A stretch of 48,646 bases of DNA. Source: Flavobacteriales bacterium. Lineage in GTDB: Bacteria > Bacteroidota > Bacteroidia > Flavobacteriales_D > Sanyastnellaceae. Shown here piece after piece: positions 7,907 to 38,614 of the stretch (positions are counted from its first letter, which is position 1; each line of letters opens with the position of its first letter). Made by a program: the position numbers and the translations under genes. Location: the NCBI GenBank assembly GCA_022447625.1, contig JAKVAX010000025.1, positions 1-48,646 on the forward strand. Reading direction: 5' to 3'. The notes under the pieces are model-generated. The model saw nothing but the letters and a program-made list of their open reading frames with translations, made no database searches and was not told the DNA's origin.

Positions 7907-7940
7907 GGGCGAGAATGTTAAAGGATTTGAACACGTTATC

Positions 7941-8238: not shown

Positions 8239-8326
8239 CATCGCGATATCGGAATCCCCTGACGTAACCTTTCCCCTCCGCTCCCAGTAAGAGAAAGCAA
8301 ATCCGCAAGGTTTGAAAACAATAAAC

Positions 8327-19234: not shown

Positions 19235-20500
19235 CTACTTAACAAGAAATGGAAAGTTAGCCGTAGCTGCCTTCCCTCCTTCATCATGGACATACACGAA
19301 CAAACGGTATGCTCCTGGGTCAGAAGGAGCTGGAACTGAAAACTCCGTTCCCTCTGTAAAAGTATTGGTAAATAAACTCTCTGGACGCTCCTCATAATCA
19401 CCTCCAGCTTTTGTGTTGGTACTTTCAGGAATGATCTCGAGTTTGATAGAGAGCTTGTCGTTCTCCTTATCCTTCGTCACAAGCGTGAGGTCCATATTGT
19501 CACCCGTTTCAACGTTGACGCTTTCGAATCGTGTTTTACTGTTGACCTTGAACTCTGTAATGCTCGGAGCAAAGTTGCTCGGGTCCATTCCGTTCCAATG
19601 CTGGTAAAGCACGTCAATGGCCTCCGTCTTGCTCCCGTCTTCAAGGAATACACCGTACCAAGTTGGAGTCGTTTCTTGTTTCTGCCCCCAAAGGAAAACG
19701 TAAGATCCAACGCAACTACCGCGATCTTCTTTAATACCACTCTGGTAACGCTGGTAATACGACGATGCCTTCTCCGTAGAAGTTTGCTCAATTGGTGCAC
19801 CCCAAGTTGTTTTCTGAACTTCCCAGTGTCCTGTTGGTCCCCACTCTGTAACCATGTATGGGCCATCCCAACCGAATAGCTCGATATCGTATTTCAGTCC
19901 ATCAATTCCACCATAGGTGTTCACACCGAGTACGTCGATGCTTGGAGCGCGCTCTTTAATAAGTTGAACTTCTGCAACATCGATTCCAGCTGTAACGCAG
20001 CACGTGAGGTGATTCGGATCTTCTTCATGAATCATGGCAGCAATCTGTTCGGTCGCATCCCATACATTGATATCAGAGTAGAATAGGTCAACTTCGTTAC
20101 CAACACCCCACATCAATAGTGCTGGGTGATCTTTGAACTCACGCACCGCTTGACGAAATCCGTTCAACTGATCTTGCACAGCCCATTCGTCGCTGTAATC
20201 GAAGCCATGACGTTCGTGTGCCAACCAAAGTCCAAGCAACACGGTCAAACCATGTTCATGAGCCTCATCAAGGATAGCTTTGGCGTTATCTAGACCCCAT
20301 GTACGGATCGAATTTCCACCGCATTCTACAACAACATCCATATGTACATGGCCACCTGCTCCTTTGATGTAGAAGGGTTCACCATCTTTGAGAATTTCCC
20401 ATTGACCATTGATCAGACGTTTTTCAGTCTTTGTCGGTCCTTGAGCGTGAATGGCTCCAACGAATAAAACCGCCGCTAGGATGATCAATAACTTCTTCAT
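19235..20500 (-). CDS. Clan GH-A glycoside hydrolase (GH2-TIM/GH5-like), last gene of the beta-glucan operon
   Basis: 421-aa exported enzyme (signal peptide MKKLLIILAAVLFVGAIHAQ). The TIM-barrel domain fits clan GH-A retaining hydrolases: acid/base Glu136 in WGVGNEVDLF after strand 4, and nucleophile Glu219 in MVTEWGPTG after strand 7. Residues from about 325 form a beta-sandwich without a T9SS tail, so the protein is probably periplasmic. The exact GH family cannot be fixed from sequence reading. Its place in an operon with GH16 and GH3 suggests it cuts beta-glucan oligosaccharides or side branches. Its ATG overlaps the GH16 stop by 4 bp (ATGA). Confidence 0.85.
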   Translation of the reverse strand: MKKLLIILAAVLFVGAIHAQGPTKTEKRLINGQWEILKDGEPFYIKGAGGHVHMDVVVECGGNSIRTWGLDNAKAILDEAHEHGLTVLLGLWLAHERHGFDYSDEWAVQDQLNGFRQAVREFKDHPALLMWGVGNEVDLFYSDINVWDATEQIAAMIHEEDPNHLTCCVTAGIDVAEVQLIKERAPSIDVLGVNTYGGIDGLKYDIELFGWDGPYMVTEWGPTGHWEVQKTTWGAPIEQTSTEKASSYYQRYQSGIKEDRGSCVGSYVFLWGQKQETTPTWYGVFLEDGSKTEAIDVLYQHWNGMDPSNFAPSITEFKVNSKTRFESVNVETGDNMDLTLVTKDKENDKLSIKLEIIPESTNTKAGGDYEERPESLFTNTFTEGTEFSVPAPSDPGAYRLFVYVHDEGGKAATANFPFLVK

Positions 20501-22269
20501 GGTTTGATCAGCTTTTGGGTGCGAACTCCATCAACAGCGACTAAATGGACGATGTAAACACCAGGGGCGAAAACCTCAACAGTTGCGCTGCGTTCAGCGA
20601 CTGCTGTAGTACCAATTAGTCTTCCTCCGGCATCATACACCTCCAAAAAGTCGGCTGATGAATTCGATAATGTTATTGTATTTTCAACCAAGGCCAGTGT
20701 GCCTTCGATTTCCTTGTATTCAGCAACTCCTACTGGTACGCAATCCACAGCGATCAACGTAGGATCATCGGTATGGATCAGGTATCCGAGGGGTTGAGCG
20801 CTCAACATGCGCATTTGCAACTGATTGATCTCAGTAGGATCTACCGTTGGATTTGGTGCGCTTGTCACCGTGAAATAAACCTGCTCCCATTCGTAGGTAA
20901 CAGTGGTTTGTCCTTGAAGTGTGATGTAACTTCCTCCGAAAACCGAACCTCCAGACTGCTCTTCATTCATGAGTCGTAACTCAAGTGTTGTACCTGCAGG
21001 TGCATTTGTGAATGTTTTTAAGGCTAGTGTGCGTTCTCCTTCAGCAATTGGTGTTGCATCTGTAATCCCATCAATCGTAAATCGTACGAAGTCACCAGTA
21101 GTTCCTTCTCTCGTCCAACGGGTAGAAACAGAACTACCATTCACCGCATTTGGTGAAGGCAGCGGATCCAGAGAAACTGCTCCTGTCGCCGCAGACCAGT
21201 GCACACCGTAATGTGTTTCATTGTCAGACATGACAACCTCACACTCATTTCCTACGCGAATCGTTTTTGTGATTGTTGATTGACACTCTCCTGAACCAAT
21301 CGTCAAGTTGAGATCGTGCACTCCTGGGAAATCCCAGCTTACTACTACGTCTGCTGAGTTACCACCTGAAACAATTGTTCCTCCGTCTGTGCTCCATTGA
21401 TACTCCATTCCATCAACTGCTTTTGTGTTGTATGGAACCTCATCACCAAGGAAAGAATAAGGACGACCAGTAATGATTGCCATCTCGGGAACGTGGTAAA
21501 CACGCACGTAGTCAACGATCATATCTGCCTGCGAAGGCGTGGTCTCATCAGGGAATCCGGGGAACCAACCACCAACAGCAAGATTCAGAATGATGTGGAA
21601 GTCTTGATCAAATCGCCAAGGGAATGTTCCCTGGTCTTCTGGTGTTTTCACGCTGAACAACTGGCCGTCAAGGTACCAGCGAATCTCGTCGTGCTCCCAT
21701 TCAATAGCATAAGTATGGAATCCATCGGCCAATGACTGAGGAACGTTCACTGTCGCTCCTGTCAATTGGTTGTTCGGCCATTTTGGTCCGAAGTGAAGTG
21801 TCCCGTGATTGGTGAATACATCGTTCCCAATCACCTCAGTCACGTCAATCTCTCCTGATAGCGGCCATCCGCCATATTCACGTGTTTCTGGAAGCAGCCA
21901 AAACGCAGGCCAAAACCCTTGCCCTTCTGGCATCTGGATACGTGCTTCGATACGTCCAGACTTGAACGTTTGAAGATCACGCGTAACGATGCGTGCTGAA
22001 GTCCACTCAGGGGCTCCCCCTACTTCAAAATTGGCACGAATATGAAGGTTTCCATCAGACAAGAACACGTTCTCATCTTCGTTTGTATAGAACTGGAGTT
22101 CGTTATTTCCCCAGCCACATAGGCTAGGACAACCATCTCCGAGGTCAAATCCCCAATTCGAAAGATCTAGTGTAGATCCTTCAAATTCATCTGACCAAAC
22201 TAATTGCTCGCACTGCGCATTAAGCGTCAGGCTGAGCGCCAAAAAACCAACTACTCCTAAAAGTCTCAT
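20497..22269 (-). CDS. GH16 endo-beta-1,3-glucanase (laminarinase-like) with PKD and T9SS tail
   Basis: 590-aa secreted glucanase (signal peptide MRLLGVVGFLALSLTLNAQ). The GH16 domain covers about residues 20-260; its catalytic motif is EIDVTE (Glu140, Asp142, Glu145), preceded by the substrate-cleft pattern WPAFWLLPE. Typical laminarinase landmarks LVWSDEFEG, GWGNNELQFY and the closing DYVRVYHVPE are present. A PKD domain (YQWSTDGGTIVSGG) and a CBM-like beta-sandwich follow, then a type A T9SS sorting domain (LEVYDAGGRLIGTT to the end). It would be exported by T9SS to attack laminarin-type glucan outside the cell. ATGA overlaps join it to the GH3 gene upstream and the GH-A gene downstream. 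Confidence 0.94.
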   Translation of the reverse strand: MRLLGVVGFLALSLTLNAQCEQLVWSDEFEGSTLDLSNWGFDLGDGCPSLCGWGNNELQFYTNEDENVFLSDGNLHIRANFEVGGAPEWTSARIVTRDLQTFKSGRIEARIQMPEGQGFWPAFWLLPETREYGGWPLSGEIDVTEVIGNDVFTNHGTLHFGPKWPNNQLTGATVNVPQSLADGFHTYAIEWEHDEIRWYLDGQLFSVKTPEDQGTFPWRFDQDFHIILNLAVGGWFPGFPDETTPSQADMIVDYVRVYHVPEMAIITGRPYSFLGDEVPYNTKAVDGMEYQWSTDGGTIVSGGNSADVVVSWDFPGVHDLNLTIGSGECQSTITKTIRVGNECEVVMSDNETHYGVHWSAATGAVSLDPLPSPNAVNGSSVSTRWTREGTTGDFVRFTIDGITDATPIAEGERTLALKTFTNAPAGTTLELRLMNEEQSGGSVFGGSYITLQGQTTVTYEWEQVYFTVTSAPNPTVDPTEINQLQMRMLSAQPLGYLIHTDDPTLIAVDCVPVGVAEYKEIEGTLALVENTITLSNSSADFLEVYDAGGRLIGTTAVAERSATVEVFAPGVYIVHLVAVDGVRTQKLIKP

Positions 22270-24503
22270 TTTACAATCAGTGTTTCTTTCATATCTCCAA
22301 TCAAAACCCCAAATACCCCAGGTTCAACTACCCACTCGTTGTCAATTCCAACGAAAGCAAAGTCTTGCACCGGAATAGAGAACTGCACTTCTTGGCTAGC
22401 TCCCGCATCTAGTTGCACTTTGCGGTAAGCACGTAGTCGCTTCACGCTTGGCGTGATTGTGGCTACACTGTCGCTTACATAAACCTGAATGACATCTGAT
22501 CCAGCGAGTTCTCCTGTATTCTTAATCACAACCGAAACTTCTAAAGTTCCGCCCACAGCTAAGGTATCAGCAGACAAACTCAGATCGCTCATTTCAAACT
22601 TAGTGTATGACAATCCATCTCCGAACTCGTACAGTGGGTTCACCGCATTCGTAGAGAAATCGATGTGCATCATATCCGTGTATTTGTGGTCGTACGTAGT
22701 ATGCGCTGAAGGATATCTTGGGTAGGTAAATGGAAGGTGACCTCCAGGGTTGTGTTCTCCTAATAATACATCTACCAAAGCTCTACCTCCCTGATCTCCA
22801 GGCAACATCGCTAAAATAAAAGCATCAATTCCCTCAGGAAGTTCTCCAAACGTTCGTGGGCGCCCTTCGGCAAGGATCAGTGATGTCGGAACGGTCAATT
22901 CTCCTAGTTTACCAATCACTTCTATTTGATTTCCAGGAAGATAGAGGTCTTCAATATCACCTGGTGTTTCCGTGTAAGGTGTTTCACCTAAGAAAGCAAT
23001 CACGTGATCGGCGCTCACTCCTCGTGAAGTCAAGAATTGGTCATTCGTCATGTAGGTAACGCTAGCAAATAGCGACTGTACTTCTTCGAGGAAAGATGGC
23101 ATGTCTGGAGTATTGTACTGCGGATCTACTCCTTGCCAAGTACGCGTCCATCCACCGTTTAATACGTTTAATGAGTTTGCATTGTCACCAACCACCAGGA
23201 GACGTTCTCCACCATTTAGTGGCAGAGCGTTTTCATTCTTAAGCATTACGATGGACGCTCGAGCTGCTTCCAAGGCACTTGCACGCGCTTCCGCGCTAGC
23301 GAAATCAGGATAATCATCAAGAGAAGGCACCTTTGCGTCAAACAGACCAAGATCAAACTTCAATTGAAGAATACGACGCACAGATTCATCAATGCGTGCT
23401 TCTGCAATCTCTCCTTCTTCTACCAGCTCTTTCAAGAGCACTGGGAATTCAAGATCCGTTGGGACCATTGACATATCGATACCTGCATCAACCGCCATTT
23501 TGATTGCTTCTTTATAGGTAGCAGCTACTTTATGACGAGAAACGAGGTACTTGATGTCTTCCCAATCAGTCACTACCATGCCTTGAAATCCGAGCTCGTT
23601 ACGCAACAGGTCAGTCAAGATGGCTGGGTTCACGTGAACAGGAATGCCGTTCATTTCTCCAGAGTTGACCATGATGGTTTTCGCACCTCGGTTGATCGCT
23701 TCTTCGAAACCAGGAAGGAAGTACTCGCGCAATTGACGTTCAGGCACCCAAGCTTGCGTGCGGTCCTTACCAGAAAGCGTTACGCTGTATCCTAAGAAGT
23801 GCTTGAGACAAGCAGCTACGTGTACCGAATCAATTTCGTCACCAGAACCTTGGTAACCGTCAACCATGGCAGACCCCATGTCAGTTACCAGCTTCACATC
23901 TTCTCCGAAAGTCTCCCAGAAACGTGGCCAACGAGGGTCACGAGCAATGTCAAGCACTGGTGAGAAATTCCACGGAATTCCCGAGGCACGAACTTCATAG
24001 GCTGCTGTTTCAGCCAGCGATTTCACCATTGAAGTATCCCATGAACACGCCAGACCAATTTGTTGTGGAATCAGCGTACTATTGTCAGTGTATGTCACAC
24101 CATGAATCGCATCAATACCGTAGAGGACAGGAATCTGATTCGGTGTCTCTTTGGCTTTGTCTTGAATGCGTGTCATAAGATCTAACCAAAACTCTCTCGG
24201 GTAGCTATGACCACCACAGTTCAAGATTGATCCTACGTTCAAGTCAACAATCACTTCTTGCAGACTTAGCTCATCCATATGATGCGGTTCGACAGAAGCA
24301 TATGGCTCTCCTTCTAGGATCATATCAAGGGTAAGTTGGGTCATTTGCCCCACCTTTTCCTCCAAGGTCATGTTAGAGAGTAACTCCTCCACTTGGGAAT
24401 TCTCCTTCGTGGAAGAATTACTTTCATTTGGTTGTTCAACTGGCGAGCACGCTATTATCGCCACGCTAAAGATGTATAATATTATGTGGTTAGTTCGTAA
24501 CAT
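22266..24503 (-). CDS. GH3 beta-glucosidase lipoprotein
   Basis: 745-aa exo-acting beta-glucosidase that releases glucose from oligosaccharide ends. The ATG at 24503 is preferred over a TTG 15 bp upstream because it starts the lipoprotein signal peptide (MLRTNHIILYIFSVAIIACS; lipobox Cys at 19). The GH3 N-domain has KHFLGY, the nucleophile Asp in VVTDWED (about residue 313) and NFSPVLDIARDPRW. The C-domain (LLVVGDNANSLNVLNGGW) and a fibronectin III-like end (SDVIQVYVSD) complete the usual BglX-like layout. The lipobox suggests membrane attachment facing the periplasm or the surface. The start overlaps the stop of the upstream lipoprotein gene by 14 bp. Confidence 0.94.
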   Translation of the reverse strand: MLRTNHIILYIFSVAIIACSPVEQPNESNSSTKENSQVEELLSNMTLEEKVGQMTQLTLDMILEGEPYASVEPHHMDELSLQEVIVDLNVGSILNCGGHSYPREFWLDLMTRIQDKAKETPNQIPVLYGIDAIHGVTYTDNSTLIPQQIGLACSWDTSMVKSLAETAAYEVRASGIPWNFSPVLDIARDPRWPRFWETFGEDVKLVTDMGSAMVDGYQGSGDEIDSVHVAACLKHFLGYSVTLSGKDRTQAWVPERQLREYFLPGFEEAINRGAKTIMVNSGEMNGIPVHVNPAILTDLLRNELGFQGMVVTDWEDIKYLVSRHKVAATYKEAIKMAVDAGIDMSMVPTDLEFPVLLKELVEEGEIAEARIDESVRRILQLKFDLGLFDAKVPSLDDYPDFASAEARASALEAARASIVMLKNENALPLNGGERLLVVGDNANSLNVLNGGWTRTWQGVDPQYNTPDMPSFLEEVQSLFASVTYMTNDQFLTSRGVSADHVIAFLGETPYTETPGDIEDLYLPGNQIEVIGKLGELTVPTSLILAEGRPRTFGELPEGIDAFILAMLPGDQGGRALVDVLLGEHNPGGHLPFTYPRYPSAHTTYDHKYTDMMHIDFSTNAVNPLYEFGDGLSYTKFEMSDLSLSADTLAVGGTLEVSVVIKNTGELAGSDVIQVYVSDSVATITPSVKRLRAYRKVQLDAGASQEVQFSIPVQDFAFVGIDNEWVVEPGVFGVLIGDMKETLIVK

Positions 24504-25614
24504 CCTTGACAATCTCAATTCGGTGAATATTCACGCTTCCCTTGCCTTCAAATTCAAATCGTAACTGCTTGATACGACTCCAGAATTCTCCTTCAGTAGA
24601 GAAGTCTGAAAGTGGAATTGAAAACGTCTGTTTCCCATCTCCGCTTTTCTCTATGTAAGCTGAAAGCGCCTTTTTCTTGTGAGCGAAACTATAGGCTTCC
24701 ATGACCATCAGGAGGTCTCCATTATTGATGTTTCTCTCACCTACTTCGACCATTAGTTTCAGGTCGTCATACTTATCTGTGAAGTCTACTCCTTTCCATC
24801 CTGCCCAAGAAGTACCCATGCGCTGCCACTGGCAATTATCACATTGATCCCACTCGAGCTCGAGTGTATTTCCTCTTACGTTGAAGTCTCGGCTTTCATA
24901 CTTACCTAGACCCCATACCTTGTCAAAATCACCATCGAAAATGACCATGCGGTCATCTGCATCAATAGTATGTGGTGGGAATTCTTTTTTCTTGACAGAA
25001 CGTTCTTTATGCGCCTCAATTCGAATATTGTCAATGAGTACGCTTCCGTATCCTTGACATTCCATCACTAGTTGCTTCACATTACTCAGATCGATCCCAC
25101 AGGTTTGATAATCGAAACGGTTCATTGGCATGCGAAACTCTTGCCAATCTTCAGTAATTGGGTAGGTTTCAAGACAGTAACCTCCAGAAACAGCAGCGCT
25201 CATTACCCCTCCGTAGTCTTCCAAAAGGAACACGATGATTGGAATATTCGTCTTGTCTTCTATTGCACGGATATCCATCACCAGGTCAGCGGTCTCCATG
25301 ATTGTAAGCAGGTCTTTTGGCTGCCAGTTGTTCCAACCGATTCCCATTCCAACCCAATCACAAGAAGTCTTCGCCCACTCCAGCTTCAAAACGCTACCGT
25401 GCTCGTCTTTCTTGATACTCTTGAAGTCTTTGCAATCATCCTTCTCTAATCCCCAAACGTTATCCGTTGCGTCTTTATAGACAGTGGGCGCTTTGAAATA
25501 ACGCATACCGTCTTCCGGCCCGACCAAATTTGGGTCTTCTAAGGTCATCGTCTCGAATGTGATTCCACATCCAATCCACAAGAGTGCTAGCAATATGTAT
25601 GGCAGCTTTCTCAT
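24490..25614 (-). CDS. Lipoprotein with two CBM-like beta-sandwich repeats
   Basis: 374 aa. The start is the ATG at 25614, which overlaps the previous stop as ATGA; a TTG upstream is less likely. The signal MRKLPYILLALLWIGCG has a lipobox (Cys at 16). The mature protein contains two related domains (about 45-200 and 215-374). Each begins with a DxVWGL segment (TDNVWGLEKDDCKDF and DKVWGLGKYESRDF), has a LEWxxxxCxW strand and a GW turn, and closes with a VxIDNIRIE/VNIHRIEI strand. This resembles CIA30/galactose-binding-like carbohydrate-binding folds. It is probably a surface or periplasmic glycan-binding lipoprotein; the assignment is by fold features and context, not a named family. Confidence 0.8.
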   Translation of the reverse strand: MRKLPYILLALLWIGCGITFETMTLEDPNLVGPEDGMRYFKAPTVYKDATDNVWGLEKDDCKDFKSIKKDEHGSVLKLEWAKTSCDWVGMGIGWNNWQPKDLLTIMETADLVMDIRAIEDKTNIPIIVFLLEDYGGVMSAAVSGGYCLETYPITEDWQEFRMPMNRFDYQTCGIDLSNVKQLVMECQGYGSVLIDNIRIEAHKERSVKKKEFPPHTIDADDRMVIFDGDFDKVWGLGKYESRDFNVRGNTLELEWDQCDNCQWQRMGTSWAGWKGVDFTDKYDDLKLMVEVGERNINNGDLLMVMEAYSFAHKKKALSAYIEKSGDGKQTFSIPLSDFSTEGEFWSRIKQLRFEFEGKGSVNIHRIEIVKDVTN

Positions 25615-26666
25615 GGTGTCCAAGGTGTAAATCGAGTAAAGTTCACGTAATCAAGACCGTAACCAATGAAGGTGCTAGTTCCTTCCACAGAAAGGAGAAG
25701 GAATTCGACACTGATAATTCGGTCAACGTCTTGGTTTCCTGTACCATCAATATTTCCGAAGCCTCCTACCGTACTAAGGTTAAACGAGCTCAAAGGAATA
25801 GAAACTACTTTCCATCCTTTCCAGTCAACCAGAATCTCTGTGTTGTAGGTTCCTTCGTTGAAACGATCGTATTCTCCATCCAGGTTATCATCTTCTTGCA
25901 GACCAATCGACATACGCGTGTTCCCATCGCCGAAGCCATGAACGAGCATGTTGATGTACACGTGTTCCGGGTTTGTCGTTTGGAAATCAAAAGTGCTTCC
26001 AGCTGGAAGATCTTGTGACGCCGATGCGGTGGTGTTGATACCACAGATGAATACACTTCCTTGGTTATCGTAAGTCATTCGCCAGTGACCGTTCCCTTCT
26101 CCTGCGAACACTTGAATGAACTCAGGTGTGTCGAAGGTTGGGTCTTGCACGAAGTACGAACCATCAACATGCGCGTTAGTGGCAGCAGCTTCAGCGAATG
26201 TCCCCCATCCTGCAGCCTCTTCGAAGTCTCCAAGTAGAAGGTCAATCGACTGTTCAGGACGAATACCTGCAATGGTAATCGTATCTCCCCAAAGTGTATC
26301 TGGGTAATCAGCGAATGTCATGTACGTCAACGCTTCTTCTGATGAGAACAACGGCGCGAAAGTGATACTTCCGTTCCAGTTTGCTACCTCACCTGTTACA
26401 TCGCGTTCACGACCTGTGATCTCTTTACGAGCTCCCGATGTCATTCCCTCAACAGTAATCTTCCAATCTGTTCGAATGGTCAGTTGAGCAGAGAAATTCA
26501 CCGTCTCTCCCACGCCGAAGTCAACCGTCTCGCGGTCAGAACTTAACGTTTCTAGCACCTCGAATTCTCCGAAGATATCCTGAAGCTCAGGCCCTTCGAT
26601 CTCATCTTTACGACACGCTGTGAAAGCGACGAATGCGAGGATTGTGATATATAGAATTCGTTTCAT
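25611..26666 (-). CDS. Surface glycan-binding-type lipoprotein
   Basis: 351 aa with a clear lipoprotein signal (MKRILYITILAFVAFTAC, followed by RKDEIEG). The first part (about 30-145) has Ig-like/PKD-like strands, and the second part (about 145-350) a jelly-roll of the kind found in SusE/SGBP-type proteins, with FEEAAGWGTF near its start and YGLDYVNFTRF at its end. Position directly after the two porin-like barrels suggests that it hands glucan pieces to them at the outer membrane. I do not recognise a specific named family. The start shares one base with the preceding stop (TGATG), so it is translationally coupled. Confidence 0.78.
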   Translation of the reverse strand: MKRILYITILAFVAFTACRKDEIEGPELQDIFGEFEVLETLSSDRETVDFGVGETVNFSAQLTIRTDWKITVEGMTSGARKEITGRERDVTGEVANWNGSITFAPLFSSEEALTYMTFADYPDTLWGDTITIAGIRPEQSIDLLLGDFEEAAGWGTFAEAAATNAHVDGSYFVQDPTFDTPEFIQVFAGEGNGHWRMTYDNQGSVFICGINTTASASQDLPAGSTFDFQTTNPEHVYINMLVHGFGDGNTRMSIGLQEDDNLDGEYDRFNEGTYNTEILVDWKGWKVVSIPLSSFNLSTVGGFGNIDGTGNQDVDRIISVEFLLLSVEGTSTFIGYGLDYVNFTRFTPWTP

Positions 26667-28432
26667 CAGAAGAAAATATTAAAGAGTACAACCAACTGCT
26701 GGATGTCATATGCTCCACGCGGAATGTCTGCAGATTCGATCGTCGAAGAACGACCTTGAATAAGCAGGTGCGTATTCTGGTTGAATGTGTACTTCATTCC
26801 AGCCAGCACAGTTTGATCACTCAAATCAATATCCAATTGCTGGTAGTCAGCAATCTCACTAAATGCGTTTCTCATCGCCATGTACTCCGTTCCTTCGGCA
26901 TTCAAGTTAATTACGCCTAGTTCTAGGAATAGATCTTGAGTCACCTCGAAAGAAATACCGGCTTCGAGGAAGATGCTTGTCAGATCAACCTCACCAATTC
27001 CTTCTAGCGCTTCTACTGGAGCGTCAATGGCATCACGAGAAGTTGCTTCGTAACGTCCACCTAACTCTACAATCAACCGGTTCTTACCTCCGTAGAGTTC
27101 ATTTAATGCAAAACGTCCGCTTAGATCTAAACGTGTGAAGTTTCTGAATTCACTTGTTCCTTCACCGTTCACCTCTGTCAACAAGGCTAGGTTCGCTTTT
27201 ATCGAACGAATTGCTGTTGAATCCGTTCCATAGTCGATTCCACCCCGAAGTCCTTGACGGTTTGGTGTAGCATCGCCATAAGGGGAAACATTATTATAAG
27301 CAGGAAGGAATGGCTGAAGTTCAGGAGTGATTGTCAGGTTATACAATCCAACATCAGTTAGCACATCAAACACGTTAAATGCACGTGGCGCTTCATTATT
27401 TCCTTGGAAGCTGAAGTTTTGTGGCAGCGATCCAGAAACAATTCGACGACTCTGTGCTCCGGGTGATCGGAAACCAGAACGAACAAATAGATATTCTCCG
27501 TAGAAACGAAGCTTGTCTTCTGTGTTACGACGAACCCCCAACTGGAAGAATACATCAGAAGTATCTTGAGGCGCTTCATTGATTTCCTCGTAGCGAGACA
27601 TGCTTATTCCCCCTTCACCGTAGAAAATGAGGTCAAGGTCTTCAACAGGCTTCAGTTTTGCGTTGATCGTGTGCACCGTCGTCGCTTTCATCTCTTCTGA
27701 GAATTGAGCCGTCTGCGCCACATCAAACATTCCAACCAAGTTGTAGCCAATTTCGCCAAAGCCTTTACGGCCGTAAACCATGCTTCCCCCACCAATCAAT
27801 CGATCTGGAGTAAAGAAGAAGTCTGTCTGGCGATTCTTCGCGAGGAACATATCAAATCCGAGCGTATTACCTTTTCCAGGTAGACGTAGTTTGAAATCTG
27901 TCTGAACCCCTTGCTGGCGCCAGCGATTGTTCCGGTAAAACTGTTCGTACTGAATGATGTCTTCGTAAACATGAAGACTTGACATTCTGTGTTGACCAAG
28001 GTCAGCGTCGCTATTGTACAGCGTAAACGGTGTCATTTTCAAATCCAGGTCACCAACACGGTAGCGCACCTTTCCTTTGACTAGACCACGGATATATAGT
28101 TCACGGAAACCAAAGCCAATACCAGCTCCCCAGAATCCATCCAAGTCACTTGTTACACGAGTAAGTACTCGGATTTCAGTTGACGGATTTGGGTTTACTT
28201 GGAATCCGAGATCGAATAGCGCATAACCAGTCATTTCTTTACGCGCGTTCACGGTATCTGCCGCCAAGGTGTCACCATTGATTATGGTCTGACGGTACAA
28301 ATCTCCACCAATCTCACTGTTTTGCATGTAGAATCTTCCGGCTCCGTATACCTGGAATTTCTCATTCTGCGCTAGCGCGGAAATGCTTAACGATGAGATG
28401 AGGATCAAGAATATGTATTTCGTAATTCTCAT
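26666..28432 (-). CDS. Porin-like outer-membrane beta-barrel, 588 aa
   Basis: Signal peptide MRITKYIFLILISSLSISALAQ, then alternating hydrophobic/polar strands and short turns throughout, ending VVLFNIFF, the terminal Phe expected of a BAM-assembled barrel. There is no SusC features set (no carboxypeptidase-regulatory-like domain, no TonB plug, too short at 588 aa). A family name is not recognised. The context, between an inner-membrane sugar symporter and glycan-binding lipoproteins, points to an outer-membrane pore for glucan oligosaccharides; this is inference. It is linked to the next barrel by a one-base stop/start overlap (TGATG). Confidence 0.8.
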   Translation of the reverse strand: MRITKYIFLILISSLSISALAQNEKFQVYGAGRFYMQNSEIGGDLYRQTIINGDTLAADTVNARKEMTGYALFDLGFQVNPNPSTEIRVLTRVTSDLDGFWGAGIGFGFRELYIRGLVKGKVRYRVGDLDLKMTPFTLYNSDADLGQHRMSSLHVYEDIIQYEQFYRNNRWRQQGVQTDFKLRLPGKGNTLGFDMFLAKNRQTDFFFTPDRLIGGGSMVYGRKGFGEIGYNLVGMFDVAQTAQFSEEMKATTVHTINAKLKPVEDLDLIFYGEGGISMSRYEEINEAPQDTSDVFFQLGVRRNTEDKLRFYGEYLFVRSGFRSPGAQSRRIVSGSLPQNFSFQGNNEAPRAFNVFDVLTDVGLYNLTITPELQPFLPAYNNVSPYGDATPNRQGLRGGIDYGTDSTAIRSIKANLALLTEVNGEGTSEFRNFTRLDLSGRFALNELYGGKNRLIVELGGRYEATSRDAIDAPVEALEGIGEVDLTSIFLEAGISFEVTQDLFLELGVINLNAEGTEYMAMRNAFSEIADYQQLDIDLSDQTVLAGMKYTFNQNTHLLIQGRSSTIESADIPRGAYDIQQLVVLFNIFF

Positions 28433-30411
28433 CAGAAGAATACTTTAAGTTCTATTGTTGTCTCCGTACCAGAAATATCATCCTGAACGAAGTTTTCGTC
28501 TTTTTGAGTGAATCGTTTGTGTCTGATGTACAGACCTGAGCTCTTCGAAAGCCTAACATCTAGTCCTACTCCGAATGAAGTAGATCGCTGGTCAATTGGA
28601 CCTGCGGCTGCAGTGGTTGTTCCTGGGTAATTCGAACCAGCAATTGGCGTTCCATCCAAACCATAACTGTCGAAATCGCCAGAAATATCTTCTACCGTAG
28701 CTCCTGCAAGGTTGCCATTGAGATCGCGATAGTAGATGTTGTTCGTTCGATCGTTTCCTTTGATCGTTTCCAATCCAACACCCACGCTCAAGTCTAACCA
28801 ATCACGAATAGGGGTGATGAAATCAAACTCGTGGTAATTGGTTCTCAGGTATGCTTCGTCATTGAAGATGGGAAGCAAGCTCAATCCATCACCAACAGAG
28901 CCACTCATTCCGTTGTAAAGAAGGTAGATCGGGTGATCTAGCACATCTACACGTTGTTTGATTTGGTACTGAAGGGTATTGAATCCTAGCAAGCTCTGAG
29001 GAAGTCCGAGCGAATCAACATGAGTAATGAAGACATCTTCAGCAACACCTCTGTAGAAAGCGCTCCAACGGCCGTAGGGTCCAATTTGCTGCGCAAATGG
29101 AGCAAAACGCGATAAGGCAAGTCCATTGATCTTATGTCCGAAAGACAATCGATTCGACGCACGCTCCAATTCCTCAGAAACCATGTTTCCGATGGATATA
29201 TGGGTTTTCTCAAAGTCAGCGAAAAGGTTGAATGAGAATCCTTGACGGTTGTTTAAGATTTGGCCAACATCTGTGATACTCCCAGCGAACGCAGCAGCCC
29301 CACCTCCACCAGTAACAATCTGCCCCGCGTCATCATCAGTGATGATCTGAGTGTTTGACGACAAGAAGTTACCGAAGTAGTTCACGAATTCCGGCGCTAG
29401 CCTGAAGACATCAATATCTCCAGAAAGCCATGGAGTAATCTTGTTTACGCTCACATTTACGCGAACAGCTTCTCCGTAATCAAGCTCTTGCATCGGAGAA
29501 AACAAGCTTCCAATCCCCGCTTCTGCATTAACTGCAATCTTATCATTCGCCCAACGGCCATTGATCGTATGGAGGCTAATCCCTGCCTTTTGAGTCGCAA
29601 TCGAATCAGTGTACAGCAGGTAGTTCATTGTGTTTACACCAACGAAACCATTTTCAAAACTCTTACGCAAACGACCACCATAGCTCGAGGCAGGCAAGGC
29701 ACGACCAAAGGTGGTGGTTGCTGCAGTCTTACCAAACATTAAGCGTGCACTTAATCCAGCCGGAAGATCAGTCAGGTCAAAAAGTGCTCCTTTGAAAGCT
29801 TGATTAGCCCAACGACCGTCTCTAGAGATATCTCCACTCTGCATGTAGATATCCGCACGCTCAGAGCCTTGTCCGTTTCCTTCCCAGGCCCAGCGTTCAA
29901 AGAGACTAAATCGGTTGTATCCTACGAAGCTAGAGAACACCATATCACTCACCTCAACCCAGTTGATCCCTCCTAGCTGGAAACCGATCGTCGCGTATTC
30001 GGTTGGAACGGTTCCATAGAGGCTGATTCCGAGGTTCAGGTTATTTGGTACACTACCGCTGCTTCCTGTGAAGTGCGAGTAGAGTGCATAATCCATACTA
30101 ATTGAAGCACCGCCTCCAGGACGAATGCTTGCAGTCATCAAAAAGATCGGTGGATCACGGTACACATCTCCAACTCCGAAAACGTATGGAGGTGTGTTAG
30201 CGAATTGGTTATCCGGTAGAACTTGGAAGTTCTGATCTAGGCTTCGATTGAAACCGTAGAAACGGTAGTAACCATTCAAGGAGAATCCACTGATGCGTTT
30301 TGACAGTTTGTACTCTTTGTCTTCATTCCCTTTCCAGTCTAGGGTATCAGATACCGCTAGCGAGGGAACGCTGAACAACAGTGCTATAATCAAAACAACC
30401 TTCTTCATCAT
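28432..30411 (-). CDS. Porin-like outer-membrane beta-barrel, 659 aa
   Basis: The start is taken as the ATG at 30411 (MMKKVVLIIALLFSVPSLAVS, a normal signal peptide); the second ATG at 30408 is equally possible, and the upstream GTG-type extension is unlikely. The mature chain has many amphipathic strands (SGFSLNGYYRFYGF near the N-terminus, TTIELKVFF at the end) and a C-terminal Phe, as in outer-membrane barrels. It shows no SusC domain signature and is about 350 residues shorter than a SusC. Together with the neighbouring 588-aa barrel it may form the outer-membrane uptake route of this locus. The family is not recognised. Confidence 0.8.
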   Translation of the reverse strand: MMKKVVLIIALLFSVPSLAVSDTLDWKGNEDKEYKLSKRISGFSLNGYYRFYGFNRSLDQNFQVLPDNQFANTPPYVFGVGDVYRDPPIFLMTASIRPGGGASISMDYALYSHFTGSSGSVPNNLNLGISLYGTVPTEYATIGFQLGGINWVEVSDMVFSSFVGYNRFSLFERWAWEGNGQGSERADIYMQSGDISRDGRWANQAFKGALFDLTDLPAGLSARLMFGKTAATTTFGRALPASSYGGRLRKSFENGFVGVNTMNYLLYTDSIATQKAGISLHTINGRWANDKIAVNAEAGIGSLFSPMQELDYGEAVRVNVSVNKITPWLSGDIDVFRLAPEFVNYFGNFLSSNTQIITDDDAGQIVTGGGGAAAFAGSITDVGQILNNRQGFSFNLFADFEKTHISIGNMVSEELERASNRLSFGHKINGLALSRFAPFAQQIGPYGRWSAFYRGVAEDVFITHVDSLGLPQSLLGFNTLQYQIKQRVDVLDHPIYLLYNGMSGSVGDGLSLLPIFNDEAYLRTNYHEFDFITPIRDWLDLSVGVGLETIKGNDRTNNIYYRDLNGNLAGATVEDISGDFDSYGLDGTPIAGSNYPGTTTAAAGPIDQRSTSFGVGLDVRLSKSSGLYIRHKRFTQKDENFVQDDISGTETTIELKVFF

Positions 30412-32099
30412 GCTATTCCGATTGGTGAAAACATTACCCACAGAATTATCACTAAAGCCACCAAGATCATCGTCAATAATAGATCGCGTTTTACGGCTGG
30501 TTGTTTCATAAATTCCTTGTTACGGTCAGCCATTGTCAAGTACAAGATGGCTTGACGGTCATGCTGTACTCCCCGACTTCCAACAAAATGCACAATCGAG
30601 GAAATGAAGAAGAGGATCAATGCGAAGTGTAAGAAATTGATTGAGACAAAGCTGTCGATAAGACCTCCTTTCTGTACTGAAAGTATTGCGTTTCCGGCAG
30701 CATCTGTAGCTGTCATGAATTCAAGCGCGAGACGCACACAGCCGACCACAAAACCAGTCCAAAGTGCTAATATCGCCCCGCGATGGTTGACTGCTGGAGT
30801 TAAGATTCCAAACAGAAATACCGCAGCAATCGGTGGCGATATGTACGCTTGAATACTCTGAAGGTATTTGAATAGTCCTCCGTCAGACATCATGTTTTCC
30901 ATAAGCGGAATCCAAGCCAAACCGATGACCACTAATACCGCTGTAGATACTTGCCCGATGTATACTAGACGACGCTCACTCAAATCTGGATTCCAAATTT
31001 TGAAGAAGTCCATTGTCACTAGCGTGGAACAAGAGTTGAATACACTACTGAGCGAGCTCATTAAAGCCGCAAGCAGTCCAGCTGCGACCAGTCCTTTCAA
31101 ACCTACCGGAAGGTAATTCGCTACCATAGCAGGAAGTGCCGCATCGTATAGAATCTCGCCGTCTTCTCCAAGAAGAAGCGTACCGTCTTGTGTGAACAGT
31201 CCAAAAGCTACCACCCCGGGCAACACGAATAAGAAAATAGGAAGTAGCTTCAAGAAGCCAGCAAAGATCGTTCCTTGACGCGCATTTGCAGGATCTTTAG
31301 CAGAAAGCACACGTTGTACGATAAACTGGTCAGTACACCAGTACCACACACCAAGAATAGGCGCTCCAAAGAGAATTCCCGTCCAAGGGTAGTTAGTATC
31401 AGTGTTTGGTCTCCAAAGACTTAAGTAGTCTGTAGCTTTCGAATCGCCCACATCAGCGGTAATTGACGTCATCATAGCATCCCATCCACCAAGTTGATCA
31501 ATACCAAAAGCGGTGACTGCAATCGCACCACCGACCAGTACGAACATTTGCACCATGTCAGTGTATACCACTGCTTTCAAGCCTCCGAAAATAGTATAAA
31601 CTCCTGTAGCAATCACCACGAGTACTGCTCCTGTCCAGAAATCAATACCAAGCAATTGCTCGAAAACGAGTGCACCAGCGAAGATGGTCACAGAGATCTT
31701 CGTGAGAACATATGCGAGAATTGAGATGACACTCAAGTATCTGCGAGCTCCACGAGAGTATCGTTTCTCGAGGAATTCAGGCATCGTAAACACTCCACTT
31801 TTAATGTAGAATGGTACGAAAACCCAACCAAGAAGTAGAAGAATAAGCGCTGCAAGGATTTCAAACTGTCCATTGACGAAATCCCCACGTGCACCCGAAC
31901 CGGCAAGACCGATTAGGTGTTCAGATCCGATGTTGGAAGCAAACAGTGAAGCACCGATAACAAACCAGCCACTGTTCTTACCTCCAAGGAAGTAGGCGTC
32001 CGACGATTTCTCCTTGCGTTCTTTTCTTGTGACATAAAAAGCCACAGTAAAAATGAGCAAGAAATAAGCGCCGACTACCAGAAAGTCGAGCGTATCCAT
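30408..32099 (-). CDS. Sodium:glucose symporter-like transporter (SSS/SGLT family)
   Basis: 563-aa inner-membrane sodium/solute symporter with about 14 helices. SGLT landmarks are the opening LVVGAYFLLIFTVAFYVTRK, the segment GASLFASNIGSEHLIGLAGSG near residue 50 and GGLKAVVYTD near residue 175. These resemble vSGLT-type sugar symporters more than proline or pantothenate carriers. In the operon it would carry glucose released by the GH3 enzyme into the cytoplasm; the substrate is inferred from family and context. It starts 4 bp after the stop of the secreted CBM-like protein gene and its stop overlaps the start of the first barrel. Confidence 0.92.
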   Translation of the reverse strand: MDTLDFLVVGAYFLLIFTVAFYVTRKERKEKSSDAYFLGGKNSGWFVIGASLFASNIGSEHLIGLAGSGARGDFVNGQFEILAALILLLLGWVFVPFYIKSGVFTMPEFLEKRYSRGARRYLSVISILAYVLTKISVTIFAGALVFEQLLGIDFWTGAVLVVIATGVYTIFGGLKAVVYTDMVQMFVLVGGAIAVTAFGIDQLGGWDAMMTSITADVGDSKATDYLSLWRPNTDTNYPWTGILFGAPILGVWYWCTDQFIVQRVLSAKDPANARQGTIFAGFLKLLPIFLFVLPGVVAFGLFTQDGTLLLGEDGEILYDAALPAMVANYLPVGLKGLVAAGLLAALMSSLSSVFNSCSTLVTMDFFKIWNPDLSERRLVYIGQVSTAVLVVIGLAWIPLMENMMSDGGLFKYLQSIQAYISPPIAAVFLFGILTPAVNHRGAILALWTGFVVGCVRLALEFMTATDAAGNAILSVQKGGLIDSFVSINFLHFALILFFISSIVHFVGSRGVQHDRQAILYLTMADRNKEFMKQPAVKRDLLLTMILVALVIILWVMFSPIGIA

Positions 32100-32103
32100 G
32101 TGC

Positions 32104-33495
32104 TTACGGCTGGATGAACAGTGTCTTCTGTTCGCTCACTCCCGCGTCGCTTGTCACATGAACAGTATATAGTCCTGTAGATAGGTATGAAAGATCGATC
32201 TGCATTTGAGTCTGCATGATCAAATCACTAGCTACTAGCGAGCCCATTGAATTATAGACATCATAACGCTCAAGCTGTTCGCTAGCCTTGATGTTTACAA
32301 GTCCTGTTGTAGGGTTCGGGTAGATTTCAAGGTCAATTGAAGACTGCTCTTCTACATTCACCAAGGTCTCTACAATGAGGTTGTCAATGTAGAAGGTTTC
32401 AGCAAGCTCTTGTCCTGGTTCGATTAGAATAACGAAGTCAGTTGCGTTCGGAGCTCCTTGGATTGGTGCAAGATCAAGAGAGAATGTCTCCCACTGAAGA
32501 GATGTTGTGGTTACGAATTCTCCTAGGATCAACTCCAATCCGAAATCATCCTGAATAGAGAATAGGACCGTGCTGGGCGCAGCTGGATCCCAGAAATCGA
32601 AGTATAAGGTTGTTGTTTCACCAACTGGAATATTAAGTGCCTGTGCGAAATTTCCGACTACAACGTCATCCGGAGCACCTCCATTACGTGCATATTCCAA
32701 ACACTTGTCATCTTGGTCAAGTGCAGGATCTGGGAAGATAGACATACGACCGTCAGTGTATTCGATTACGAATCCATCGTTATCACAATCAGCGTCCATC
32801 AATACAAAGTCTGCCTCGTTGTATGCTTCACAAGGTGCTTCAGCACGCTCAGCCCCCATAAGGTTATCAAAGTAGTATGTTTCAGAAACGTTCACTCCAG
32901 GATTAAATAAAAGAACCATTTCATCACAATCAACATTAGCTGTTGGTGCATCTGGCCACCAACCTGCATTCGCACCATCAGTCCATGGCTGTCCTGTAAG
33001 TGTGAATTCAAGTGTTTCCCATTCACCACCAGTTGTAGTAATCGCTTGATACTCCGAGTGACGTCCACCTGGGTAGCCATTACTTTCTGCTAGCTCTGCG
33101 TTCTGAAGTGAAATTTGAACCGTGATTCCAGGAACGGGAGCATATACATCCATAGTCATTGTTTTCTCACCAGCTAAGTATGGAGCGAGGTCACCCAATT
33201 CACCACTATCAATGAGAATCACATCATATGTTTCGGATGGGTTACGCGTGTATTCTGCACAAGAAGGACTGTCATTAACGTCGTTAGGTCCGGGGTTCAC
33301 CGCGTACTGGAGAAGTGTTCCGTGCCATCCTGGCCATTCCATTCCTCCGATTCCGTTGTTCATTTGTTGCGGAAAAGGAATATTCAATCCATAAGTCACT
33401 GTTCGAACGTCGTCGAACGAATCATACATCTCCTGTGCTGTTACGAGCGAGCAGGTCATTAATGTTGCTACGAGCACTGCGTATATCTTCTTCAT
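32104..33495 (-). CDS. Secreted CBM-like protein with T9SS tail, first gene of the beta-glucan operon
   Basis: 463-aa exported protein (signal peptide MKKIYAVLVATLMTCSLVTAQ). Two related beta-sandwich domains (about 22-215 and 222-380) both end in an ETxYxDNL strand (SETYYFDNLMGAE, AETFYIDNLIVET), as in carbohydrate-binding jelly rolls. A type A T9SS sorting domain follows (LEIYPNPTTGLVNI to KTLFIQP). It is probably displayed at the cell surface and binds glucan. No catalytic motif is seen. The 184-bp region upstream holds the TGATGTAGT repeats, shared with the divergent regulator gene. Confidence 0.83.
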   Translation of the reverse strand: MKKIYAVLVATLMTCSLVTAQEMYDSFDDVRTVTYGLNIPFPQQMNNGIGGMEWPGWHGTLLQYAVNPGPNDVNDSPSCAEYTRNPSETYDVILIDSGELGDLAPYLAGEKTMTMDVYAPVPGITVQISLQNAELAESNGYPGGRHSEYQAITTTGGEWETLEFTLTGQPWTDGANAGWWPDAPTANVDCDEMVLLFNPGVNVSETYYFDNLMGAERAEAPCEAYNEADFVLMDADCDNDGFVIEYTDGRMSIFPDPALDQDDKCLEYARNGGAPDDVVVGNFAQALNIPVGETTTLYFDFWDPAAPSTVLFSIQDDFGLELILGEFVTTTSLQWETFSLDLAPIQGAPNATDFVILIEPGQELAETFYIDNLIVETLVNVEEQSSIDLEIYPNPTTGLVNIKASEQLERYDVYNSMGSLVASDLIMQTQMQIDLSYLSTGLYTVHVTSDAGVSEQKTLFIQP

Positions 33496-36517: not shown

Positions 36518-38614
36518 CTAGTTACAGATTTGCCCGAATCCAGCCAAGAAAGCAAGCAGATCCGCTGCATTGACTACTTGATCTCCATTGATATCTTCGA
36601 CACAGCTAGCCGTAGCAAACAAACAAGACCCATCGTCAACTGTAGCTAGCGCATTGTAGTTATCCGCATCTTCATACGTACAGCCGAAAAGCAGATCTCC
36701 AACACATAGGTTAGGATCGTGTGCAGCATATGGGTTAAAATTAGCTCCTAAGGGATCATTGCACCCTGCACATGGGTCACAGCTAGCGAAACATGAAACC
36801 TGTATCACTAGATCTGTAAGAGGCAATTCAAGTTCTCTCATTCCACCAACAACACAAGATCCAGATGGTGACTCATTCACTCCATCTCCAATGAATCTGT
36901 ACTGCATCGTCTCGCCACCGTTTAACGTCACATCTAAAGCCCAAATCCCCCAACCTTGTTGGATCATTGGCACCGTTCCAGTGAAGAATGGCGAGATAAT
37001 TTCAACGTCCATAGTCGATGCGTCAATATCGAATGCATCTACCTGGAACGTTACTGCGATTTCAGAAGCGACACATGCCGCACAAGAGTTGAAACAAACC
37101 ACATCCAGAATCAAAGGCATACCCATTTGTTGTGTAATTCGGTTCGTAAACACTTCGTCGTTACCATATGTGGTTATCGTGCAGCTCGCTCCAACTGGGA
37201 AATACTCTATGGCACCACTCCACCCGTTGGTAGTGAATTTGTACTCATGATTCCCTATTGGCAGATCGAGCATTGTCTCATAAATACCGTCTTGATCTGG
37301 ATCCGAAAGCTGATTGCATGCGCCACACCATGAATTGAAGGTACCATTCAAGTGCACTTGATCTGATGGAGAAAGCCCCATCTGCGACATGTCAACTCGG
37401 AAAGTTGTGGCATAGAGACAACTGCCGTTGTCTGAGGTAGCATTCGAGTCATAATTAGACGCATTGATATCAGTACACCCTTCATTGTTGTTTGAAGGAC
37501 AGAAGGTGCAGGAATTAAAGCACACCGGAGGGATTGATGTTGGCTCGAATCCATGATTCACGAAGCGGTTTACATATGTATTGATTCCGTCGTAGGTGGT
37601 GATTGTACAGGGGTCTCCAGAGTTAAAACCCTCTACGATACCGTCCCATCCGTTGATGACGTATTTGTATTCGTGAATGCCCGGAGGTAGGTTAATTGTA
37701 GATGTCCAAACTCCATTTCCTTGGTTGGTCATAGGAGAACATACACCACACCAACTATTGAACGAACCGTTGAGGTGAGGGATGTCACCGGCATTTACAT
37801 TTTCCTCTGATAGATCCAGTGTAAAGGTCACTGGATTTGTTTCGGGTGCATATTCGTATACACGCACATAATCCACCTGCATTTCTTGAGGGAAAGTGGT
37901 ACTTGCATCAGGAGCCCCAGGCCAGTTCCCCCCCACCGCAACGTTAAGGAGGAAATAATAATCTTGAGCAAAGAGCCATTCGTATTGCGGTGGTACTTGT
38001 GAACGTTCTAAGCTGAAGTAGAGAATATCATCAAAGTACCACTCAATGTTGTCAGGATACCAGACAATGGCGTAGGTATGGAAATCGTCTGCCAATGAAG
38101 CTCCAGCATCGTACGAACCACCGATGGAAAGCACATCTCCTACCGTACCTTGATGGGTAGTTCCATGTAGGATATTTGGTTCGTTCCCCACAATCTCCAT
38201 GATATCGATCTCCCCTGGCCAAAACTGACCTTCAGGAAGCATCCAAAAGGCCGGCCATAACCCTTGGCCAGTCGGAAGCTTCATTCGCGCCTCCATTTTA
38301 CCATATGTCCAGTATTGCTTGTTCAGCGACTTGATCCTTCCACTGGTGTAGTTCATTCCACCTATAGACTGCTCTAGTGCACGGATATGGAGCATTCCAT
38401 CTTCAACAAACACATTGGTTTCATTGGAGGTGTAATATTGAAGTTCATTGTTCCCCCATCCATTCAATCCGAATTGGGCACCAGTACCCAGATCATAGGT
38501 CCAATTGGTGATATCGAGTTCTGTTCCATCGAACTCATCACTCCATACCAGAGACCAATCTTGAGCAGAGACAAAAAGTGGGCAAAACGCCAGTAATAAC
38601 AATAGTTTTCTCAT
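36518..38614 (-). CDS. GH16 beta-1,3-glucanase with CBM-like modules and dockerin-like tail
   Basis: 698-aa exported laminarinase-type enzyme (signal peptide MRKLLLLLAFCPLFVSAQ). The GH16 domain (about 20-260) has GEIDIME (Glu135, Asp137, Glu140). Three CBM20-like modules of about 100 aa follow; the first two have a FNSWCG motif and Cys-rich ends (CFNSCxxC). The C-terminus has two repeats of the GCxDxxAxNY type, then an EF-hand-like dockerin segment (DINGDQVVNAADLLAFLAGFG). This ending is shared with the two binding proteins upstream and the protein at the right edge, and differs from the T9SS type A tail on the GH16 at 20497. The gene has its own position between convergent regulator and terminator. 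Confidence 0.92.
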   Translation of the reverse strand: MRKLLLLLAFCPLFVSAQDWSLVWSDEFDGTELDITNWTYDLGTGAQFGLNGWGNNELQYYTSNETNVFVEDGMLHIRALEQSIGGMNYTSGRIKSLNKQYWTYGKMEARMKLPTGQGLWPAFWMLPEGQFWPGEIDIMEIVGNEPNILHGTTHQGTVGDVLSIGGSYDAGASLADDFHTYAIVWYPDNIEWYFDDILYFSLERSQVPPQYEWLFAQDYYFLLNVAVGGNWPGAPDASTTFPQEMQVDYVRVYEYAPETNPVTFTLDLSEENVNAGDIPHLNGSFNSWCGVCSPMTNQGNGVWTSTINLPPGIHEYKYVINGWDGIVEGFNSGDPCTITTYDGINTYVNRFVNHGFEPTSIPPVCFNSCTFCPSNNNEGCTDINASNYDSNATSDNGSCLYATTFRVDMSQMGLSPSDQVHLNGTFNSWCGACNQLSDPDQDGIYETMLDLPIGNHEYKFTTNGWSGAIEYFPVGASCTITTYGNDEVFTNRITQQMGMPLILDVVCFNSCAACVASEIAVTFQVDAFDIDASTMDVEIISPFFTGTVPMIQQGWGIWALDVTLNGGETMQYRFIGDGVNESPSGSCVVGGMRELELPLTDLVIQVSCFASCDPCAGCNDPLGANFNPYAAHDPNLCVGDLLFGCTYEDADNYNALATVDDGSCLFATASCVEDINGDQVVNAADLLAFLAGFGQICN

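Follow-up and report, generated by a model that had tools for sequence, protein, structure and literature searches.

Contig JAKVAX010000025.1 from a Flavobacteriales bacterium (family Sanyastnellaceae; GenBank assembly GCA_022447625.1) contains a nine-gene operon with beta-glucan-active enzymes and without SusC or SusD. We analyzed a stretch of 48,646 nucleotides of this contig, which we call the window. Four consecutive genes of the operon encode two outer-membrane barrels (A and B) and two lipoproteins (LP1 and LP2). A-B-LP1-LP2 is a conserved unit, usually with an enzyme of glycoside hydrolase (GH) family 158; the operon's symporter is an optional companion. We consider it likely that A, B, LP1, and LP2 form an outer-membrane complex for glycan uptake, which would take over the role of SusC/SusD and need no TonB-dependent transporter. 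The module appears to stand in for SusC/SusD in many Bacteroidota that consume laminarin or other polysaccharides, and this would generalize a cellulose cluster of a few bacteria.

We also lean, by a small margin of belief, towards a broader proposal: that Bacteroidota have a second general glycan importer of the outer membrane that does not depend on TonB. This would be a cassette of two barrels and two lipoproteins that comes in exchangeable versions, for beta-1,3-glucan, cellulose, chitin, or sulfated glycans. In entire genera of Flavobacteriales from marine and fresh waters, it would have taken the place of SusC/SusD for laminarin.

The operon and its two barrels

Nine open reading frames (ORFs) on the minus strand run from 33495 to 19235; neighboring ORFs overlap or are separated by a few bases. 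They form a nine-gene operon with GH16, GH3, and GH-A enzymes, as a preliminary description of the window had proposed; the GH-A enzyme belongs to GH158. From 5' to 3', the operon encodes a protein with a sorting tail for the type IX secretion system (T9SS), an SGLT-type symporter, barrel A, barrel B, LP1, LP2, GH3, GH16 with a T9SS tail, and GH158. We scanned the window's proteins against Pfam and NCBIfam. Among all nine operon proteins, Pfam found no TonB-dependent SusC and no SusD-family lipoprotein, which bears out the preliminary description. Clustered glycan-active enzymes (GH158, GH16, and GH3), lipoproteins (LP1 and LP2), and a regulator (of the Y_Y_Y/LuxR type), which together are a trait of SusC/SusD polysaccharide utilization loci (PULs), are present.

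Barrel A (28432..30411, minus strand) has 659 amino acids from the ATG at 30411, and barrel B (26666..28432, minus strand) has 588. They had been described as two unfamiliar barrels in the position of SusC and SusD, and this description holds: neither has any match in Pfam or NCBIfam at E ≤ 0.1, including the plug and CarboxypepD_reg domains. When 69 homologues of A and 63 homologues of B were scanned singly, no plug, TonB-receptor, or CarboxypepD_reg family was found at E ≤ 0.01. The family matches of these homologues were generic or unnamed (OMP_b-brl in 6, DUF3575 in 2, and MipA in 1 for A; OMP_b-brl in 4, DUF2490 in 4, and OmpA_membrane in 1 for B). AlphaFold2 modeled each protein singly as a plug-less outer-membrane barrel of 22 strands as counted with DSSP. 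For A, the model has a pLDDT of 80.5 and a pTM of 0.81, and the strands are of at least 8 residues; for B, these values are 88.8, 0.86, and at least 10 residues. In both models, the chain that precedes the first strand is too short for a plug. The low-confidence loops of A, and the long conserved loops of both barrels, could fold inward. The lack of a recognizable plug argues against TonB energy, so transport through these barrels may be independent of TonB.

The models point to large barrels without a close relative of solved structure. A sequence search of the PDB gave nothing for A and one chance-level match for B (E = 0.71). By fold, the matches of both are numerous and include ushers, AlgE, and OprD as well as the barrels of TonB receptors. 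The best match of A is the usher 9fxs (Z = 15.1, root-mean-square deviation [rmsd] 5.0 over 355 residues), followed by an usher and OprP at 13.6. For B, the usher 9fxs (Z = 16.0, rmsd 5.0 over 345) and AlgE 3rbh (Z = 15.9, rmsd 6.0 over 322) are tied. We found no convincing homology between A and B (hhalign 24%) or between A and a single SusC sequence (hhalign 1.4%). The proteobacterial porins maltoporin, chitoporin, and OprD/Occ are also plug-less barrels and appear among the fold matches, but we found no sequence relation between them and A or B. These porins have 16–18 strands, instead of about 22 in our models, and are often trimers. We know of no dedicated lipoprotein pair that accompanies them.

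LP1 (25611..26666, minus strand) has no clear family in Pfam or NCBIfam. A lipobox was detected in 130 of 154 LP1 homologues, and 126 of these 130 have one or more acidic residues within positions +2 to +6 (copies were not dereplicated). The lipid cysteine is followed by a charged stretch similar to R-K-D-D-E (C-R-K-D-E in the window's protein), which we take to resemble the surface-export signal of Bacteroidota lipoproteins. Such an acidic stretch is found in only 32 of 77 homologues of LP2 (24490..25614, minus strand; copies again not dereplicated). LP2 probably contains two domains similar to carbohydrate-binding modules (CBMs), as it has weak similarity to CBM30 (E = 6.2e-4, residues 84–191) and to Exop_C (E = 6.5e-5, residues 242–367), both below the Pfam cut-off.

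The operon's first gene (32104..33495, minus strand) encodes the protein with a T9SS sorting tail (Por_Secre_tail, E = 2.8e-13), whose probable function is to bind glycans at the surface. The symporter (30408..32099, minus strand; SSF, PF00474, E = 2.3e-88) is of the sodium/sugar type: its best relatives of solved structure are human SGLT1 (E = 6.7e-113) and SGLT2, and it also matches the sodium/glucose cotransporter 2xq2 (E = 1.3e-74). The GH3 beta-glucosidase (22266..24518, minus strand; PF00933, E = 1.8e-75) has as its best NCBIfam match an exo-beta-1,3/1,6-glucosidase (E = 4.4e-141, under that model's cut-off). The GH16 endo-beta-glucanase (20497..22269, minus strand; PF00722, E = 3.6e-21) carries a T9SS tail (TIGR04183, E = 4.1e-7, above the cut-off), which suggests a surface location.

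The last gene of the operon (19235..20500, minus strand) encodes the GH158 enzyme, with a signal-like sequence at its N terminus. Its residues 31–420 align to residues 32–423 of PDB entry 9oro ("Glycoside hydrolase family 158"; E = 3.8e-96), and it also matches 6pal (E = 9e-76), which we take to be a GH158 structure. GH158 is a family of endo-beta-1,3-glucanases. It probably acts in the periplasm, because a lipobox is rare in its homologues (3 of 110, copies not dereplicated) and neither Pfam nor NCBIfam gives a T9SS match for the copy in the window. GH158 is listed among the enzymes of laminarin PULs (PMC10108472, PMC10877868).

Could SusC/SusD be supplied from elsewhere in the genome? The assembly is a draft of 3.9 Mb in 76 contigs and is 99.8% complete. 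It encodes two SusC-like proteins above the TIGR04056 cut-off. The first pairs with a SusD and lies beside two alpha-amylase genes, in what appears to be a starch locus. The second pairs with a SusD-like_2 protein and lies beside two genes for S51 peptidases. Neither pair resembles a beta-glucan system. We found no SusC/SusD pair that would suit beta-glucans, in a search that did not include PF12771 across the genome, and on this scope we rejected the explanation. As a side observation, the peptidase locus (L213, G000:C3:50000-66000) encodes SusC at 7564-10611 and SusD-like_2 at 6209-7558, followed by the two S51 (cyanophycinase-like) genes, one of which has a T9SS tail. This pair possibly takes up cyanophycin or a related peptide.

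A conserved module and its relation to strong SusD within one family

We gathered loci from related genomes, from named genome contigs (the best 80 of 161 relatives), from four genomes of other classes, and from a survey of the class. After near-identical copies (95%) were removed, 168 loci were reduced to 129; A had to be at least 500 amino acids long. One of the carriers is the cultured species Phaeocystidibacter luteus (L171). Because the loci were gathered via A or B, the presence of these two is partly by construction. Gene order, conservation, correlated divergence, the lack of a recognizable plug, the enzyme families, and the exclusion with strong SusD inside the family were all computed directly.

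Among 100 related genomes (including the window's), A was found in 51 and B in 50. A was found alone in two genomes (G029 and G038) and B in one (G016), and a small number of genomes (G055 among them) have the A and B matches on separate contigs. B directly follows A, in constant order, in 127 of the 128 non-redundant loci in which the order was readable, a pattern that exceeds chance. In the sole exception (L070), an antisense ORF had been picked, and a separate search for B found it there. The preliminary description had two lipoproteins following the barrels, and they do so in most of the loci: LP1 is directly after B in 118 of 119 loci. Of 112 loci with a readable third gene after A, 95 have LP2 there (including 2 of the GH9 type), 6 have a further LP1-like protein, and 11 have another gene. 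The barrel pair co-occurs with glycan enzymes in many genomes, and GH158 was labeled in 107 of the 129 loci. The symporter was labeled in just 27 of 129, so the earlier idea of a sodium symporter stands as to its type but not as a core part of the system.

SusC/SusD-like labels occur in 2 of the 129 loci (as found by phmmer with few queries, four of them SusC): a SusD in L128 and an ORF similar to TonB receptors in L216. In L128 (185-16004), SusD and GH16 lie upstream of GH158-A-B-LP1-LP2, which is a hybrid or transitional arrangement. More broadly, we found B in 49 of 395 genomes in a sample of the class and A in 6 of 395 genomes in a sample of the phylum.

Pairwise distances for A correlate with those for B (r = 0.91), LP1 (0.88–0.89), and LP2 (0.83), each over 82–93 loci, more closely than with those for GH158 (0.70–0.73; 42–82 loci) or GH3 (0.67; 42 loci). 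This is as expected if the four proteins form a complex.

To compare the module with SusD, we defined strong SusD as a PF07980 match with E < 1e-20. This threshold was chosen post hoc on the discovery set and then left unchanged for 53 new genomes. In the discovery set from the window's family, strong SusD is present in 4 of 39 genomes with the module and in 15 of 22 others (Fisher P = 5e-6; these counts, and those below, ignore relatedness). The four module genomes with strong SusD (G012, G039, G054, and G056) have sulfatases at their module loci. We split A at 560 bits, a value picked when the scores were known but the genes at those loci were not yet; the low-scoring group includes partial hits (G016, G029, G055, and G057) and a divergent one (G014). 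Strong SusD was found in 0 of 8 new genomes with high-scoring A, in 8 of 9 with low-scoring A, and in 27 of 36 without A (high-scoring A versus no A, Fisher P = 1.4e-4). Together with 28 genomes of the discovery set, all 36 of the 36 family genomes with high-scoring A lack strong SusD. Within this family, high-scoring A and strong SusD exclude each other. Across the 114 family genomes searched, A is in 56 and some match to PF07980 is in 98; the matches in module genomes are mostly weak, like the SusD of the window genome's starch locus.

In the new genomes, sulfatases are present at 9 of 9 low-scoring A loci and 0 of 8 high-scoring ones (several of these are on short contigs). This suggests that SusD and the module coexist in genomes whose module is apparently directed at a different glycan. 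Both states occur within each of two genera, g14 and g18, and the swap therefore does not reflect a single ancient split.

We fetched 18 regions around strong SusD, 15 of them in genomes that lack the module and 3 in genomes that have it. SusD was labeled in 16 of them; 13 of these contain GH3 and 15 contain GH3 or GH16, and the one with neither is a 4.5-kb contig. GH158 was in 0 of 18 of these regions, versus the 107 of 129 module loci. We labeled GH16 with home-made profiles whose CBM48-like modules also occur in other proteins, but all seven labels that we tested in SusD loci were confirmed as GH16 by Pfam. Our survey of sulfatase content did not include a CBM48 profile, and several of its "GH16b" labels are probably CBM48 proteins. 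The SusC/SusD laminarin PULs share GH3, GH16, and surface proteins of both T9SS and lipoprotein types with the module, and they occur in the same bacterial family. Unlike them, the module has two plug-less barrels and no SusC/SusD, and it adds GH158. Strongly expressed SusC/D laminarin PULs have been reported from Cryomorphaceae (PMC6794258), in keeping with the SusCD state that some relatives show.

Versions for other glycans and a cellulose cluster

Within one small order (10 genomes), some genomes have up to three copies of B, with differing enzymes. G572 has two copies with GH16/GH3 (L277 and L278) and one with GH9 (L279). The copies of G502 are one with GH9 (L280), one with GH18 and proteins similar to glucosamine-6-phosphate isomerase (L281), and one without a label (L282). 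A phylogenetic tree of A groups the two GH9 copies in a supported clade and the four GH18 copies, together with L282, in another. Over nearly the full length, identity to the window's proteins is 26% for the GH9-type A from L280 and 29% for the GH9-type B. For LP1, the GH9-type protein and that of the window match in two stretches (25% and 32%), and the window's LP2 matches a GH9-type LP2 profile, built from two sequences, at 80.6% in hhalign over 311 columns.

Other versions of the module are accompanied by sulfatases and often by the formylglycine-generating enzyme (L325-L333 and L097-L106). GH158-like enzymes occur in sulfatase loci too, which suggests that the target there may retain a related backbone. 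In one chitin-type locus, a GH18 chitinase fused to an OmpA-like domain lies just upstream of barrel A (L299:5160-6917).

A likely relative of the module is the "atypical PUL" chu_1276-chu_1280 of Cytophaga hutchinsonii, which matters for the use of cellulose and encodes two outer-membrane proteins, two proteins similar to surface glycan-binding proteins (SGBPs), and an endoglucanase (PMC12016534). We compared the two by layout, by residue positions, and by that paper's description only. According to that paper, chu_1276 and chu_1279 are required for the use of cellulose, which is also markedly affected when chu_1277 or chu_1280 is lost. CHU_1278 and CHU_1279 are the SGBP-like proteins, the cluster has no SusD, and the SusC/SusD homologues of C. 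hutchinsonii are described as uninvolved. The cluster and the GH9 loci L279 and L280 share the layout barrel-barrel-LP1-LP2-endoglucanase. As in the window's module, two consecutive genes encode outer-membrane proteins without SusD. Downstream, in the positions of LP1 and LP2, the cluster encodes two proteins with beta-sandwich or CBM-like domains; in the window, the weak CBM30 and Exop_C matches fall in the two halves of LP2. The counterpart of the endoglucanase is GH9 in L279 and L280, and GH16 and GH158 in the window. The window's version differs by its GH158, GH16, GH3, SGLT-type symporter, and divergent regulator.

In CHU_1279 (375 amino acids), the tested aromatic residues W89, F92, and F180 contribute negligibly to binding, and Y253, F256, and F343 are important (PMC12016534). 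All six are at or near the positions of aromatic residues in P0004, the GH9-type LP2 of G572 (380 amino acids; Y89, F92, F180, Y255, F258, and F349), as paired by motif and spacing instead of by alignment. The identically numbered positions (89, 92, and 180) are the negligible ones of CHU_1279. P0003 has Y90, F93, F180, Y256, F259, and F350.

The preliminary description suggested an undescribed class of uptake system. This probably has to be narrowed, as chu_1276-1280 shares the layout. In the open-licence literature in PubMed Central, as far as its available text goes, we found no description of a laminarin module with two barrels and two lipoproteins; the precedent is C. hutchinsonii, and the beta-1,3-glucan version, the breadth of the family, and the exclusion of SusC/SusD seem unreported there. 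Loci with several carbohydrate-active enzymes (CAZymes) but no susCD have been noted (PMC10811738) and have been termed CAZyme clusters (PMC10108472). SusC/D genes are used as markers of glycan use in surveys (PMC6298971). If the module imports glycans, then such surveys miss consumers of laminarin as well as their transporters. Also, the puzzle of cellulose use in C. hutchinsonii becomes the problem of a family with about 130 non-redundant loci, and it raises the physical question of how oligosaccharides pass the outer membrane without TonB energy.

Proposed mechanism and alternatives

We propose that the surface GH16 would cleave laminarin and that LP1 and LP2 would capture the glycan chains at the surface. 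Oligosaccharides would then cross the outer membrane via one or both of the large barrels. In the periplasm, GH158 and GH3 would degrade them to glucose, which the SGLT-type symporter would move inward with sodium. Flow across the outer membrane would be downhill, drawn by periplasmic hydrolysis. A periplasmic endo-glucanase fits the import of fairly long chains. With other enzymes, the same cassette would serve sulfated glycans, chitin, and cellulose, and the cellulose version would be of the chu_1276-1280 type. Import, formation of a complex, topology, TonB independence, and the substrates, laminarin included, are what we infer.

Several points weigh against this proposal. The model for this locus is a prediction from sequence. 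A and B have no convincing sequence relative of solved structure and match only generic barrels by fold, so a pore in either is only a prediction. The correlation of distances between B and GH158 (0.77–0.78) nearly equals that between B and LP1 (0.78–0.80). The A copies of the sulfatase type are not one clade in the tree, and one locus (L128) has SusD beside the module. In the order outside the family, we saw no exclusion (strong SusD in 5 of 13 genomes with the module and 7 of 26 without), and some genomes have neither system. Finally, the window's genome has 31 further partial matches to TIGR04056 that are below the cut-off, many of them to the N-terminal domain only, and another TonB-dependent transporter encoded elsewhere could be the sugar carrier.

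These partial TonB-receptor-like matches also favor the strongest alternative, in which A and B are auxiliary diffusion porins or scaffolds for surface enzymes and a TonB-dependent transporter elsewhere imports the oligosaccharides. In C. hutchinsonii, cells that have lost CHU_1277 or CHU_1276 show less cell-associated beta-glucosidase activity, which was read as disturbed presentation of enzymes (PMC5553014). However, we found no beta-glucan SusC/SusD pair in the genome with the search described above, and the lack of strong SusD in all of the family genomes with high-scoring A fits replacement better than assistance. We consider this alternative rather unlikely.

We give still less credence to the idea that A and B are a machine for secretion or assembly that places GH16 and the binding proteins on the surface. 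Two of the operon's proteins have T9SS tails, and for each barrel the highest-ranking fold match is an usher, with which the exporter AlgE ties in the case of B. But the usher and AlgE matches have just 9–13% identity, approximately, and lie among import barrels and porins. Also, the enzyme sets of the module differ widely and the trees follow them, whereas a general secretion machine should be independent of the substrate. The remaining alternative, an ordinary SusC/SusD PUL whose susCD was lost or misassembled in the window's genome, is highly improbable: the assembly is a draft, and one laminarin PUL without susCD is reported from a metagenome-assembled genome of NS4 (PMC10108472), but the identical arrangement in the single-contig relative G002 contradicts it for the genus, and the arrangement recurs in 129 non-redundant loci, just 2 of which have SusC/SusD-like labels. 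As the same order is found in G002 and in many families, we rejected an assembly gap as the reason for the missing susCD. We prefer uptake by A-B-LP1-LP2 as the explanation.

Besides the operon, the window contains a divergent gene for a Y_Y_Y/LuxR-type regulator (33680..36511, plus strand; PF00196, E = 1.7e-5, above the cut-off; PF07495, E = 2.9e-5, below it). It has the identical divergent placement in close relatives and is likely the operon's sensor. In 58 loci of the first two sets, a Nudix/NrtR-type regulator lies beside the module (for example, L078:5833-6570), which suggests that regulation at many loci differs from that in the window. A conserved lipoprotein of about 278 amino acids (L124:8970-9803 and relatives) follows LP2 or GH3 in 41 of the 129 loci. 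It often has K-Q-S-D-P after the cysteine, and the copy that we tested had no match in Pfam or the PDB. L141 (PBNL01000046.1) comes from a record with the title Euryarchaeota archaeon, yet its module locus is plainly of Bacteroidota type, and the record is probably a mislabeled bin.

A second GH16 with CBM48-like modules (36518..38614, minus strand; PF00722, E = 2.8e-27) adjoins the operon. Farther along, the window encodes very long CBM48/CBM20-like proteins (38684-42595 and 42897-45992) in which Pfam finds no catalytic domain. These giants adjoin the beta-glucan operon and a transporter of the major facilitator superfamily (MFS).

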